A stretch of DNA of 64,000 bases from a virus. A program made the translations under genes and the position numbers. The notes below the pieces were generated by a model that saw nothing but the letters and a program-made list of their open reading frames with translations, made no database searches and was not told the DNA's origin. Location of the stretch: the IMG/VR virus record IMGVR_UViG_3300033997_000092, positions 124,001 to 188,000 of that record, one strand, 5' to 3'. Positions 12,440 to 16,570 of this stretch are shown piece after piece (within the stretch, counting starts at the first letter, position 1; the number at the start of each line of letters is the position of its first letter).

Positions 12440-13399
12440 ATGGCTAAAGACAAAGTGAAAGAAAAGAAGAAAGCTAAGGCTGTTGACAAGAATGATGTCA
12501 AGTCAGGCAAGAAGCCAGGCAGGAGAGAACAGGCTGCCAGCTCCAAGAAGCTGATTAAGTCAAAAGGTCCTGAGTTTAAAAAGAACAACAAGACCGCCTC
12601 ACGCACTACTGATTTTACGGTAGATGATTTCAAAGAAGCTCCGTATAACCCGCGATATATCAGCCCTGTAGAATTGCAGCGCTTAGGTAAATCGATGACA
12701 ACATACGGTGACTTGAGCGGTATTGTTTTCAACAGGCACTCGGGTGTGACTATTTCTGGTCACCAGCGCTTGAAGCAAGTACGCTTGTATGAACACGGCA
12801 CTGTACTGAAAGATGTAAAAGATGACGGTTACGGTACTGTTGCTGAAGGTTACGTATGGTACAAAGGTCCTAACGGCAAAGTTCGCATTCCATTACGTGT
12901 AGTTGATTGGTCAGATAAGAAAGCTGAATTCGCAGCCAACATCGCAGCAAACGCACACGGTGGTTCGTTCGATAACAAACTGCTGGCTAACTTGGTTGAA
13001 GCAATTGAACCAGGTGACGGCGAGTTCGATATTGATTTACTTGGTATCGATCCTATTACAATCAAAACACTTCCTTATGAAGACAAGATCGGCGATGCTA
13101 ATAAAGAAACGTCTCCGTCAGGTTCCGGTCCATCGTTTGCAGAGTTCAACTCAGAAAGCTTCGACGGCGAGTTGGTACATGAATGTCCTCGTTGTAGTAT
13201 GCGCTTCAACGACAACGGTGAAGAAGTTGTCCGTAAAGGTTACTCTGAGCCTGAAGACGATGACGAAGAAGATGAAAAGCCTTCAAAGAAAAAGTCAAAG
13301 TCAAAGAAGGACAAAGACAAGCCTTTGAAGAAAGGCGCAAAAGAGCTTGCTGAGTTTTCTACTCCGGCTAAGAAAAAGCCCAAGAAGAAATCAAAATAA
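12440..13399 (+). CDS. ParB-like N-terminal domain protein of the modification cassette
   Basis: The 319-residue protein has a Lys-rich N-terminus (about 60 residues), then a ParB/sulfiredoxin-like domain: PYNPRYISPVELQRLGKSM, IVFNRHSGVTISGHQRLKQV and RIPLRVVDWSDKKAEFAANI. SGHQRL replaces the usual DGxHR box. This domain commonly precedes DNA methyltransferases in phages and may target or nick DNA. A CPRC pair near residue 247 may bind zinc. The C-terminus is a KSKSKKDKDK-type low-complexity tail. The methyltransferase starts 12 bp downstream, so the two are probably one unit. Enzymatic activity is not shown. Confidence 0.75.
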   Translation: MAKDKVKEKKKAKAVDKNDVKSGKKPGRREQAASSKKLIKSKGPEFKKNNKTASRTTDFTVDDFKEAPYNPRYISPVELQRLGKSMTTYGDLSGIVFNRHSGVTISGHQRLKQVRLYEHGTVLKDVKDDGYGTVAEGYVWYKGPNGKVRIPLRVVDWSDKKAEFAANIAANAHGGSFDNKLLANLVEAIEPGDGEFDIDLLGIDPITIKTLPYEDKIGDANKETSPSGSGPSFAEFNSESFDGELVHECPRCSMRFNDNGEEVVRKGYSEPEDDDEEDEKPSKKKSKSKKDKDKPLKKGAKELAEFSTPAKKKPKKKSK

Positions 13400-13411
13400 A
13401 AGGAACGATTC

Positions 13412-14479
13412 ATGGCCAAAACAAAAAAGGCTGAAAAAGAATCGGCAGCAATGCGTATCAGTAGGCTGGTACCATTCGCTGTCCCTTCTATTAAGAAAAT
13501 CAACAAACATCCTAAACGCTATAAGTCCATAAGCTTGTTCGCTGGCTGTGGTGGCAGTAGTACGGGAATGAAGATGGCTGGATTTGATGTAATCTATGCC
13601 AATGAGTTTGTTGATATTGCCGCCGATACTTATGCTGCCAATGCTACATCACATACAAAAGTTGATCGCACAGACATTCGTAAAATCAAGTTCACTTCCC
13701 TTATGCGTGAACTTGGACTTAAAGAAGGCGAACTTGATCATATGGACGGTTCTCCTCCTTGCTCTAGTTTTAGTACAGCAGGTAAGCGTGAAGAAGATTG
13801 GGGTAAAGAGAAAGCCTACTCCGAAGATAAAGTCCAACGTACGGATGACCTGTTCCATGAATTCTGCCGCGCGCTACGTGCGTTTAAGCCAAAGACTTTT
13901 GATGCAGAGAATGTTTCTGGTCTTGTGAAGGGCATGGCTAAAGGTTACTTCCGTGAGATTGCTAAGCACCTTGAAGATTGTGGTTATGTTGTTGCTGCAC
14001 AGCTTCTTGATGCTAGTTGGCTCGGTGTTCCGCAGGCCCGTCAACGTATTGTGTTTGTTGGTGTCCGCAAAGACCTTGCAAAGAAGTACGGCTTCAAGCC
14101 TGTGTTTCCTAAACCTCTGTATCGTCAGGTTACTGTTCGTGAGTGTTTGCCTGACATAGCACGTATCAAAACGAAAGTACAGAGCGTTATCAAGTACGTT
14201 GATAGTAACAGGCCTAACAGTACGATTACAGCCAGTGATAGTTTAACTAGCCCGACAGCTAAATTCAGTGACGGTGGCTACATTGAAACATTTGACGGCG
14301 AACAACGCAAGTACAACATAGATGAACTGCGCGTCATCTGTGGGTTCCCTAGCGATTTCAAATTGTTAGGAACCTATGAACAACAATTTGAACGTCTTGG
14401 TCGTAGTCATGTGCCTGTGCAGATGTATTGGGTATGTAAAACTATTGCCGATGAAATTCTCGATAAGATTAAGGATTAG
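13412..14479 (+). CDS. C5-cytosine DNA methyltransferase homologue with altered motif X
   Basis: The 355-residue protein carries the ordered motifs of C5-cytosine methyltransferases: motif I SLFAGCGGSSTG (41-52), motif IV GSPPCSSFSTAG with catalytic C117, motif VI ENV (166-168), motif VIII QARQR (208-212) and LRVICGFPSDF near 306-316. Motif X, normally GNxVP, reads GRSHVPV (330-336). The cofactor-contacting Asn is missing: Arg331 follows the Gly, or Ser332 takes its place if VPV is aligned. Engineered C5-methyltransferases with Lys or Arg at this Asn are reported (from memory) to accept carboxy-SAM. Because a CmoA homologue follows 2 bp later, the enzyme may transfer a carboxymethyl group to cytosine. 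Target sequence unknown. Confidence 0.9.
   Translation: MAKTKKAEKESAAMRISRLVPFAVPSIKKINKHPKRYKSISLFAGCGGSSTGMKMAGFDVIYANEFVDIAADTYAANATSHTKVDRTDIRKIKFTSLMRELGLKEGELDHMDGSPPCSSFSTAGKREEDWGKEKAYSEDKVQRTDDLFHEFCRALRAFKPKTFDAENVSGLVKGMAKGYFREIAKHLEDCGYVVAAQLLDASWLGVPQARQRIVFVGVRKDLAKKYGFKPVFPKPLYRQVTVRECLPDIARIKTKVQSVIKYVDSNRPNSTITASDSLTSPTAKFSDGGYIETFDGEQRKYNIDELRVICGFPSDFKLLGTYEQQFERLGRSHVPVQMYWVCKTIADEILDKIKD
14399..14419 (+). other. Variant motif X of the C5-methyltransferase
   Basis: These codons encode GRSHVPV, residues 330-336. The canonical Asn of GNxVP is absent, with Arg or Ser in its place depending on where one aligns the extra residue. The change is at the SAM carboxypropyl/sulfonium side of the pocket, which is why it matters for cofactor choice. 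Confidence 0.8.
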
Positions 14480-15258: not shown

Positions 15259-16094
15259 AGAAAAAGAAACTTCCAAAAGTAAGGAAACTATTGGGAGAAG
15301 CATTGCAGCCACATCGTAAAAAGCGTTGTGGCGTTTTGCTTTCTGCTGGTGTGGATTCTCACAGTGTTTTACATGCCTGTTTGGATGTAGGCATACGACC
15401 ACTCGTAATAAGCTTTACTCGTCGTGATCACGAAAGCCGTGACTTCAAATCGGCACGTGAAGCTGCAACTCGTTTAGGATTGGATTTCTTTCCTGTCTAT
15501 CTTAAATCAGATCCAGAAGTTCTTGTACGTTATTTGCGCCATGCTGCAAAGCACGGTGTTCGTGGTAAAGCCGCTTTCGAGTGTCTATATCCGATGATGG
15601 CAACTGCCCGTAAGTTAAAACGTAAAGGCATAAAGATCGATTGTTTATTTTCCGGTTACGGTGCCGACGCCTTCTTTGCTTTGAGTAAGAAAGGATGTAT
15701 GCACTACCGTGACAAGATGGCTGAATACGCACTGGAAGCACATGCCCGATATGTCCGTAAAGGATCCCAGCTTGATATTCTCAAACGGTATTTCAAAGAT
15801 GTTGCCTGTGTCAAGTACAGTAGTCCGTGGTGTGCCGAATCTATCCGTGACAGCTTTACAAGACACACGTACTCACATGACGACTTAAACAAGCCAAAAC
15901 AAAAATGGCCTGTACGCAGAGACTTTGACAAAGAGTTCTCTGAGTCAAAAATTTTCAACCACACAAACTACCAGTTGGGTGATAGTGGTATTAGTGCAAT
16001 GTTCCTGCAGTTGCTCGATCACCGCATAAATAGCAAAAACTATAAATCAACTACTGGTATATACAACGACATTGTTCGGAGTCTCGATAAATGA
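15255..16094 (+). CDS. Asparagine-synthetase-like ATP-dependent amide synthetase (no glutaminase domain)
   Basis: The 279-residue protein has the PP-loop LLSAGVDSHSVL (S30-S35 as SxGxDS) and FSGYGADAFF (132-141), matching the SGxGADExF motif of AsnB-type enzymes. These adenylate a carboxylate and let an amine displace AMP. The N-terminal Ntn glutaminase domain of AsnB is absent, so the nitrogen donor would be free ammonia, another amine or a partner protein. A Lys-rich N-terminus could contact DNA. It overlaps the CmoA-like gene by ATGA and the next gene by ATGA. I infer that its substrate is the carboxymethyl group on cytosine. Another PP-loop reaction remains possible. Confidence 0.8.
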   Translation: MKKKKLPKVRKLLGEALQPHRKKRCGVLLSAGVDSHSVLHACLDVGIRPLVISFTRRDHESRDFKSAREAATRLGLDFFPVYLKSDPEVLVRYLRHAAKHGVRGKAAFECLYPMMATARKLKRKGIKIDCLFSGYGADAFFALSKKGCMHYRDKMAEYALEAHARYVRKGSQLDILKRYFKDVACVKYSSPWCAESIRDSFTRHTYSHDDLNKPKQKWPVRRDFDKEFSESKIFNHTNYQLGDSGISAMFLQLLDHRINSKNYKSTTGIYNDIVRSLDK

Positions 16095-16570
16095 ATCACC
16101 TGCATCACCTGTATAATCAAGTACGCAAAGCAATACTTGCCGAAGCTACAATGGATAAAGAAGATCGACTTCTCCATAGTTGGCAATTTTTAGTTCAACT
16201 GAAAGGCGTCAACTACGTTGTTGGTAAGACAGGCTACAATACTATGTTTTACCGTATAGGTGATAAGGGCGATACAGTTACTGGCTACCCAGATGATATA
16301 CTCAAAGTGATATTGTCTTGGACCAAGGAAAAATATACAGGCTACATTATTTATGATGGCACTGAAATACGCCGTAAGTCAAAAAGCATCGAAAGCTTAC
16401 TCGAACGTACTGCTAAAAAGGACTACGTCATATTTGGTGTTCGGCCAGATAATACATGGTCCGCTTTGTATGAGGCCAACAACAGCCTAAAAGGTTACCG
16501 TTGGGTAAAAGTTAAAGCACCTGCATCTGACGTTAAAGTTAAAAAGACAAAGTCCAAAACAAAGCACTAA
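16091..16570 (+). CDS. Hypothetical protein, 159 aa, coupled to the modification cassette
   Basis: It starts in the ATGA overlap with the amide synthetase. It is an alpha/beta protein with many aromatic residues (YNTMFYRIG, YTGYIIYDGTEI) and a basic tail (KVKVKKTKSKTKH region). No known family. The coupling makes a role in the same modification pathway possible, for example as a binding subunit or amine-donor partner, but nothing in the sequence shows this. Confidence 0.65.
   Translation: MNHLHHLYNQVRKAILAEATMDKEDRLLHSWQFLVQLKGVNYVVGKTGYNTMFYRIGDKGDTVTGYPDDILKVILSWTKEKYTGYIIYDGTEIRRKSKSIESLLERTAKKDYVIFGVRPDNTWSALYEANNSLKGYRWVKVKAPASDVKVKKTKSKTKH

Follow-up and report, generated by a model that had tools for sequence, protein, structure and literature searches.

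The window, a 64 kb stretch of DNA analysed within a virus record of 261,032 bases, contains a C5-cytosine methyltransferase gene whose product has the sequence GRSHVPV at motif X. The Asn usual at this position is absent, as the first-pass annotation had noted. Two questions are raised by this locus, namely whether the residue that replaces Asn directs the enzyme to carboxy-SAM (Cx-SAM), and to which pathway the gene belongs. A natural Asn to Arg change of this kind is not new. The CmoA-CmoX-CmoY system of Synechococcus phage S-B43 has been published with this residue in the same role and within the same pathway (PMC12783734, Nat Commun, 7 December 2025; PDB 8YF3), and hence the novelty is low. 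In S-B43, the carboxy-SAM produced by CmoA serves CmoX as donor of the carboxymethyl group for C-5 of cytosine, and CmoY joins glycine to this group (PMC12783734). A literature search, with preprints and most subscription papers outside its scope, revealed no further paper on the use of carboxy-SAM for DNA in phages. The S-B43 study lists 5,615 candidate CmoX proteins having SPPC and the Arg, and its sources include IMG/VR v4. Hence, the window record may be among these candidates.

Motif X and active site of the window enzyme

The features of the locus are listed in Table 1. Arg331 of the window protein pairs with Arg350 of 8YF3 in the phmmer alignment, which is gap-free at the C-terminus, and a separate MAFFT alignment gave the same pair. 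The first-pass annotation had allowed either Arg331 or Ser332 at the position of the Asn; the former assignment holds, while Ser332 is ruled out by both alignments. There is no support for the pocket being occupied by an Asn from another part of the protein, as the structure model has 8YF3 as its best PDB match and the motif X region is free of gaps in the sequence alignment. Among the 80 C5-methyltransferase frames from loci retrieved with CmoX seeds, using patterns that lie outside motif X, 79 have Arg at this position and one has Leu. Thus, Arg331 is not due to chance or a sequencing slip.

Table 1. Location of genes and motif X residues in the window.
Feature	Position	Strand	Supporting data
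319-aa protein with a ParB-like domain, lying upstream of CmoX	12440-13399	+	phrog_620, E 5.1e-29; PaBG_00176 at the same place in PaBG
CmoX, predicted C5-cytosine carboxymethyltransferase, 355 aa	13412-14479	+	PF00145, E 6.7e-49; 8YF3, E 3.6e-57
Motif X, GRSHVPV	14399-14419	+	read directly in the CmoX open reading frame
Arg331 codon, cgt	14402-14404	+	equivalent of SpCmoX Arg350 and HhaI Asn304 (HhaI equivalence from PMC12783734)
Ser332 codon	14405-14407		
CmoA relative, predicted carboxy-SAM synthase, 258 aa	14482-15258	+	TIGR00740, E 2.9e-35
CmoY relative, predicted ATP-dependent amide ligase, 279 aa	15255-16094	+	PF00733, E 8e-11; SpCmoY region, E 4e-16, 30.9%
159-aa protein, function unassigned in phrog_23597	16091-16570	+	overlaps CmoY by 4 bases; 33% to PaBG_00179

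PMC12783734 names nine residues of SpCmoX, and each of them is identical in the aligned window protein: F25, E47, F48, D69, S95, P96, P97, C98, and R350 correspond to F43, E65, F66, D88, S114, P115, P116, C117, and R331, respectively. The first four of these belong, like the Arg, to the Cx-SAM pocket. The catalytic motifs SPPC (114-117), ENV (166), and QARQR (208) are intact in the alignment. Overall, the window CmoX is 37.3% identical to SpCmoX over 327 columns and 55.8% identical to the CmoX of Pseudomonas phage PaBG over 335 columns, and the stretch linking its motifs VIII and IX differs from that of SpCmoX.

An AlphaFold2 model of the window CmoX, built from 32 aligned sequences, had a mean pLDDT of 87.3 and a pTM of 0.88. 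The best PDB match was 8YF3, both by sequence (phmmer) and for the model by Foldseek (E 1.9e-27). In VIA-align 2, 8YF3 was again at the top (Z 34.2, rmsd 2.5, 294 aligned), followed by M.HaeIII (1DCT, Z 30.4), with M.HhaI near 29.5 and M.MpeI (4DKJ) at 26.0. PADLOC matches to CmoX, of which the best 25 of 59 were considered, were to general methyltransferase models and were set aside.

The window enzyme resembles SpCmoX in the C5-methyltransferase fold, SPPC, ENV and QxRxR motifs, Arg at the place of HhaI Asn304, the Cx-SAM pocket residues, and linkage to CmoA and CmoY. M.HhaI shares the fold and the catalytic motifs, but has Asn304 at motif X and uses SAM. A parallel with M.MpeI, drawn in the first-pass annotation, is also found in PMC12783734, where the engineered N374K variant is likened to SpCmoX Arg350. 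As in the window enzyme, a basic residue occupies the place of the motif X Asn in this variant, which uses carboxy-SAM; however, it is a Lys introduced in the laboratory into a CpG-specific enzyme, whereas the window enzyme is natural and has Arg.

Arg350 of SpCmoX replaces Asn304 of HhaI and contacts the carboxylate of the cofactor (PMC12783734). Given these data and the alignment of Arg331 with Arg350, the earlier proposal that a basic residue at this position would pair with the carboxylate of carboxy-SAM is supported, and homology gives strong support to the predicted choice of cofactor through this residue.

Palindrome frequencies in the window were determined with regard to GC recognition, which is a property of SpCmoX. 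The 4-base palindromes containing GC occur at 0.85-1.03 of the expected frequency and are thus less depleted than most of the others (0.41-1.09), but no difference was seen between GC-containing and other 6-base palindromes (0.615 versus 0.601). CTAG, CCGG, and GATC are strongly scarce in the window (1-64000) at 0.41, 0.49, and 0.63 of expected, respectively.

Genes adjoining cmoX

The CmoX gene is followed after 2 bases by the gene for the CmoA relative, in line with the earlier claim that a carboxy-SAM synthase gene adjoins the methyltransferase gene, and the CmoA and CmoY genes overlap by 4 bases. The CmoA relative scores 122.1 bits against TIGR00740, under the equivalog cut-off of 193.3, and the assayed SpCmoA is also under this cut-off with 115.6 bits. 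As SpCmoA is active, a score under this value says nothing decisive about the activity of phage CmoA relatives. The window CmoA is 31% identical to the tested enzyme in the alignment. Its Arg215 aligns with Arg199 of E. coli CmoA, which binds the carboxylate according to PMC3663124, and which is chain position 213 of 4GEK if the 261-residue chain is the 247-residue protein extended by 14 residues at the N-terminus. SpCmoA has Glu in the same column, with an Arg four residues further on (alignment A1); thus, the window CmoA keeps the bacterial form. A single-protein CmoA scan found no relative. The CmoY relative is an asparagine-synthase ATP-pyrophosphatase domain that lacks the amidotransferase part. 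It misses the NCBIfam equivalog cut-off, as does the tested SpCmoY.

The gene order in the window is CmoX, CmoA, CmoY, whereas in S-B43 it is CmoA, CmoY, CmoX. ParBc genes adjoining CmoX have been described (PMC12783734). PaBG shares with the window the upstream ParB gene, CmoX, CmoA and CmoY genes, and a gene for a 150-aa relative of the 159-aa protein. The position of this small gene differs, as it separates CmoA from CmoY in PaBG and follows CmoY in the window. The PaBG cluster has no annotation beyond methylase, tRNA methyltransferase, and asparagine synthase, and a paper found in a search on this phage and methyltransferases (PMC7824862) has no mention of carboxy, CmoA or asparagine synth.

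A CmoY-like ligase gene also adjoins an oxygenase gene in Salmonella phage Sen-NF (L007, 5869-6744), where neither a C5-methyltransferase nor CmoA is annotated in the 12.7 kb around the ligase.

Association of the motif X residue with CmoA

Related loci were collected by IMG/VR scans seeded with CmoA, CmoX, Fpv8/L092-type, and ordinary enzymes, and the best 80 loci of each were taken out of several hundred candidates. A fifth IMG/VR scan with a Gly-type seed gave four loci, and named phages were added to the set. All five sequences that seeded the CmoX scan (A4) were Arg-bearing, although none of the scan patterns covered motif X. A broad C5-methyltransferase model matched 275 frames at E <= 1e-3, and dropping seven with less than 100 bits gave 268 frames, in six of which motif X was unreadable. 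The set excludes L001, which duplicates part of the window.

CmoA was present within the examined locus for 88 of the 92 frames with Arg at motif X and for all six frames with Gly, but for none of those with Asn (0/83), Met (0/80) or Leu (0/1), nor was it near any of the six unreadable frames; these are counts of related sequences rather than independent events, and many of the loci are cut by contig ends. The distance from the Arg frame to CmoA had a median of 80 bases and a maximum of 1,362. Among the four Arg frames lacking CmoA, two (L136 and L139) are followed by the contig end about 1.0 and 0.3 kb beyond the C5-methyltransferase gene, respectively, and the other two (L006 and L180) have CmoA elsewhere in the same genomes. 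One of the 88 (L169) is a different C5-methyltransferase beside a Gly-type one, and the single Leu case (L092) has a contig end close upstream. Because the retrieval pattern for the Asn set covers the GN of motif X, Asn is selected in this set but the absence of CmoA is not. Likewise, the 32 rows of alignment A7 (the window and 31 of 36 diverse frames) were picked as Arg-bearing, which makes the invariance of Arg331 there a product of selection.

These data bear on the alternative that the window enzyme is an ordinary SAM-using C5-methyltransferase tolerating Arg at motif X, and that the adjoining CmoA serves tRNA or something else. Some related C5-methyltransferases have Met or Leu with no CmoA in the examined flanks, which indicates that Asn is not strictly needed at this position. 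However, wild-type SpCmoX takes only Cx-SAM and its R350N mutant takes neither cofactor (PMC12783734), the 88 of 92 Arg frames stand against 0 of 164 with Asn, Met or Leu, and no second match to a C5-methyltransferase family is found anywhere in the 261,032-base record. A plain SAM-dependent methylase was rejected on the basis of the SpCmoX assays and the association of the residue with CmoA, and this explanation is considered very improbable. From the sequences, the motif X Arg is confirmed as a mark of carboxy-SAM use: across the examined loci, it sorts almost perfectly with the carboxy-SAM synthase.

Variants of CmoX-related enzymes

The C5-methyltransferases with Gly at motif X (VVGGVINQ) that adjoin CmoA come from Staphylococcus phages, F1 among them, and related contigs (L008, 6789-7796; L186, 6001-6999; L169-L172). 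In L169, the second C5-methyltransferase, beside the Gly-type one, has Arg (GRTVFIPII). Met (GMSVPP) is found in all 80 readable frames of a CmoX-related clade (L173, 5965-7032; L187-L266), and no CmoA is nearby in these loci. Use of another SAM analogue by this Met-type (Fpv8) clade was considered and rejected, as no conserved partner gene besides the methylase itself was found within 5 kb, the next same-strand cluster being present in 15 of 79 loci.

In the CmoX of Yersinia phage fHe-Yen9-02 (L006, 4666-6744; L180, 1142-3271), a long, intein-like insertion directly precedes the catalytic Cys of SPPC. Matches in many Erwinia phages likewise begin at this Cys.

A ParB-methyltransferase fusion beside CmoA

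The best 80 CmoA-seeded loci (L009-L088) include a C5-methyltransferase in only four cases, versus 60 with a ParB-methyltransferase fusion (phrog_5475), which lies just upstream of CmoA with a median gap of 436 bases. Two further loci have CmoY alone, and 14 have none of the fusion, C5-methyltransferase, and CmoY; in these 14, CmoA is at most 1,145 bases from the locus start, and in four of them part of a fusion gene scores at least 80 bits. In the best 80 phrog_5475-seeded loci (4 kb flanks; L347-L422 included), which share contigs with the CmoA-seeded set, CmoA was found in all 80, a C5-methyltransferase in one, and CmoY in none. All 14 named phage records with full-length phrog_5475 also contain CmoA. 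Phage HJ05 (L183), Gordonia phage Evaa (L184), and phage SM1 (L185) have phrog_5475 and CmoA without CmoX.

The fusion gave no match to the C5-methyltransferase models used, and its structure model was poor (mean pLDDT 46.3). No paper that treats CmoA, phage, and ParB together was found in the literature search. A preliminary search reported in PMC12783734 gave no CmoA-linked candidates for adenine N6- or cytosine N4-carboxymethyltransferases. It is conceivable, at somewhat below even probability, that phage CmoA also supplies enzymes other than the Arg-type CmoX, with phrog_5475 as a second class of nucleic-acid modifying enzymes that depend on carboxy-SAM and the C5-methyltransferases of the Gly type from Staphylococcus phages as a third solution.

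Predicted pathway

Judged from sequence, the window very probably carries a CmoA-CmoX-CmoY operon for the hypermodification of phage DNA, with transfer of a carboxymethyl group to C-5 of cytosine. The assignment draws on features observed here, namely Arg331 and its pairing with Arg350, the nine kept residues with the conserved pocket, 8YF3 as the best match, the order and tight packing of the genes, and the association with CmoA. The low identity to the tested enzymes (37% for CmoX and 31% for CmoA) speaks against it.

For the chemistry, the choice of amine, the target sequence, and protection of the DNA, the prediction relies on analogy with S-B43. CmoA would convert SAM and prephenate to carboxy-SAM. 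CmoX would flip out the cytosine, Cys117 would attack C-6, and Arg331 would hold the carboxylate of the cofactor, leading to transfer of the carboxymethyl group to C-5. The product is likely 5-carboxymethylcytosine (5cxmC), which would then be capped as an amide, and the modified DNA would resist host restriction.

The capping step was weighed against free 5cxmC as the final base, with CmoY acting elsewhere. CmoY was found in 28 of the best 80 CmoX-seeded loci (flanks up to 8 kb), and thus in many phages 5cxmC may be the end product, or the ligase gene may lie at another site. For the window this is most unlikely, as CmoY is within the same tight operon, and in S-B43 DNA 5gcxmdC is present and 5cxmdC absent (PMC12783734).

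A different amine in the capping step, with the pathway otherwise the same, is a less remote alternative, though still an unlikely one. Here, CmoY would join an amine other than glycine, perhaps helped by the 159-aa protein, and the final base would differ from 5gcxmC. The window CmoY is only 33.5% identical to SpCmoY over 248 aligned columns, and several ligase clusters differ in their active-site residues (PMC12783734). The 159-aa gene, which overlaps CmoY, has relatives only in PaBG, L089, L090, L084, L048, and L181 among the loci compared for this gene, and none was found in the 12.7 kb of S-B43 examined (L003). Against this, the lack of a glutamine amidase domain in the window CmoY fits the SpCmoY cluster, as does the C-terminal LNKPKQK..VR..F block that is common to both proteins.

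With the CmoA-CmoX-CmoY assignment, a PaBG-like jumbo phage would join the phages known to have the 5-carboxymethylcytosine pathway, and its ligase gene is accompanied by a small gene that overlaps it. The wider set of loci suggests that the carboxy-SAM route in phages extends beyond the published Arg350 criterion, and if this is true, the Gly type would have been missed by a filter for Arg350.
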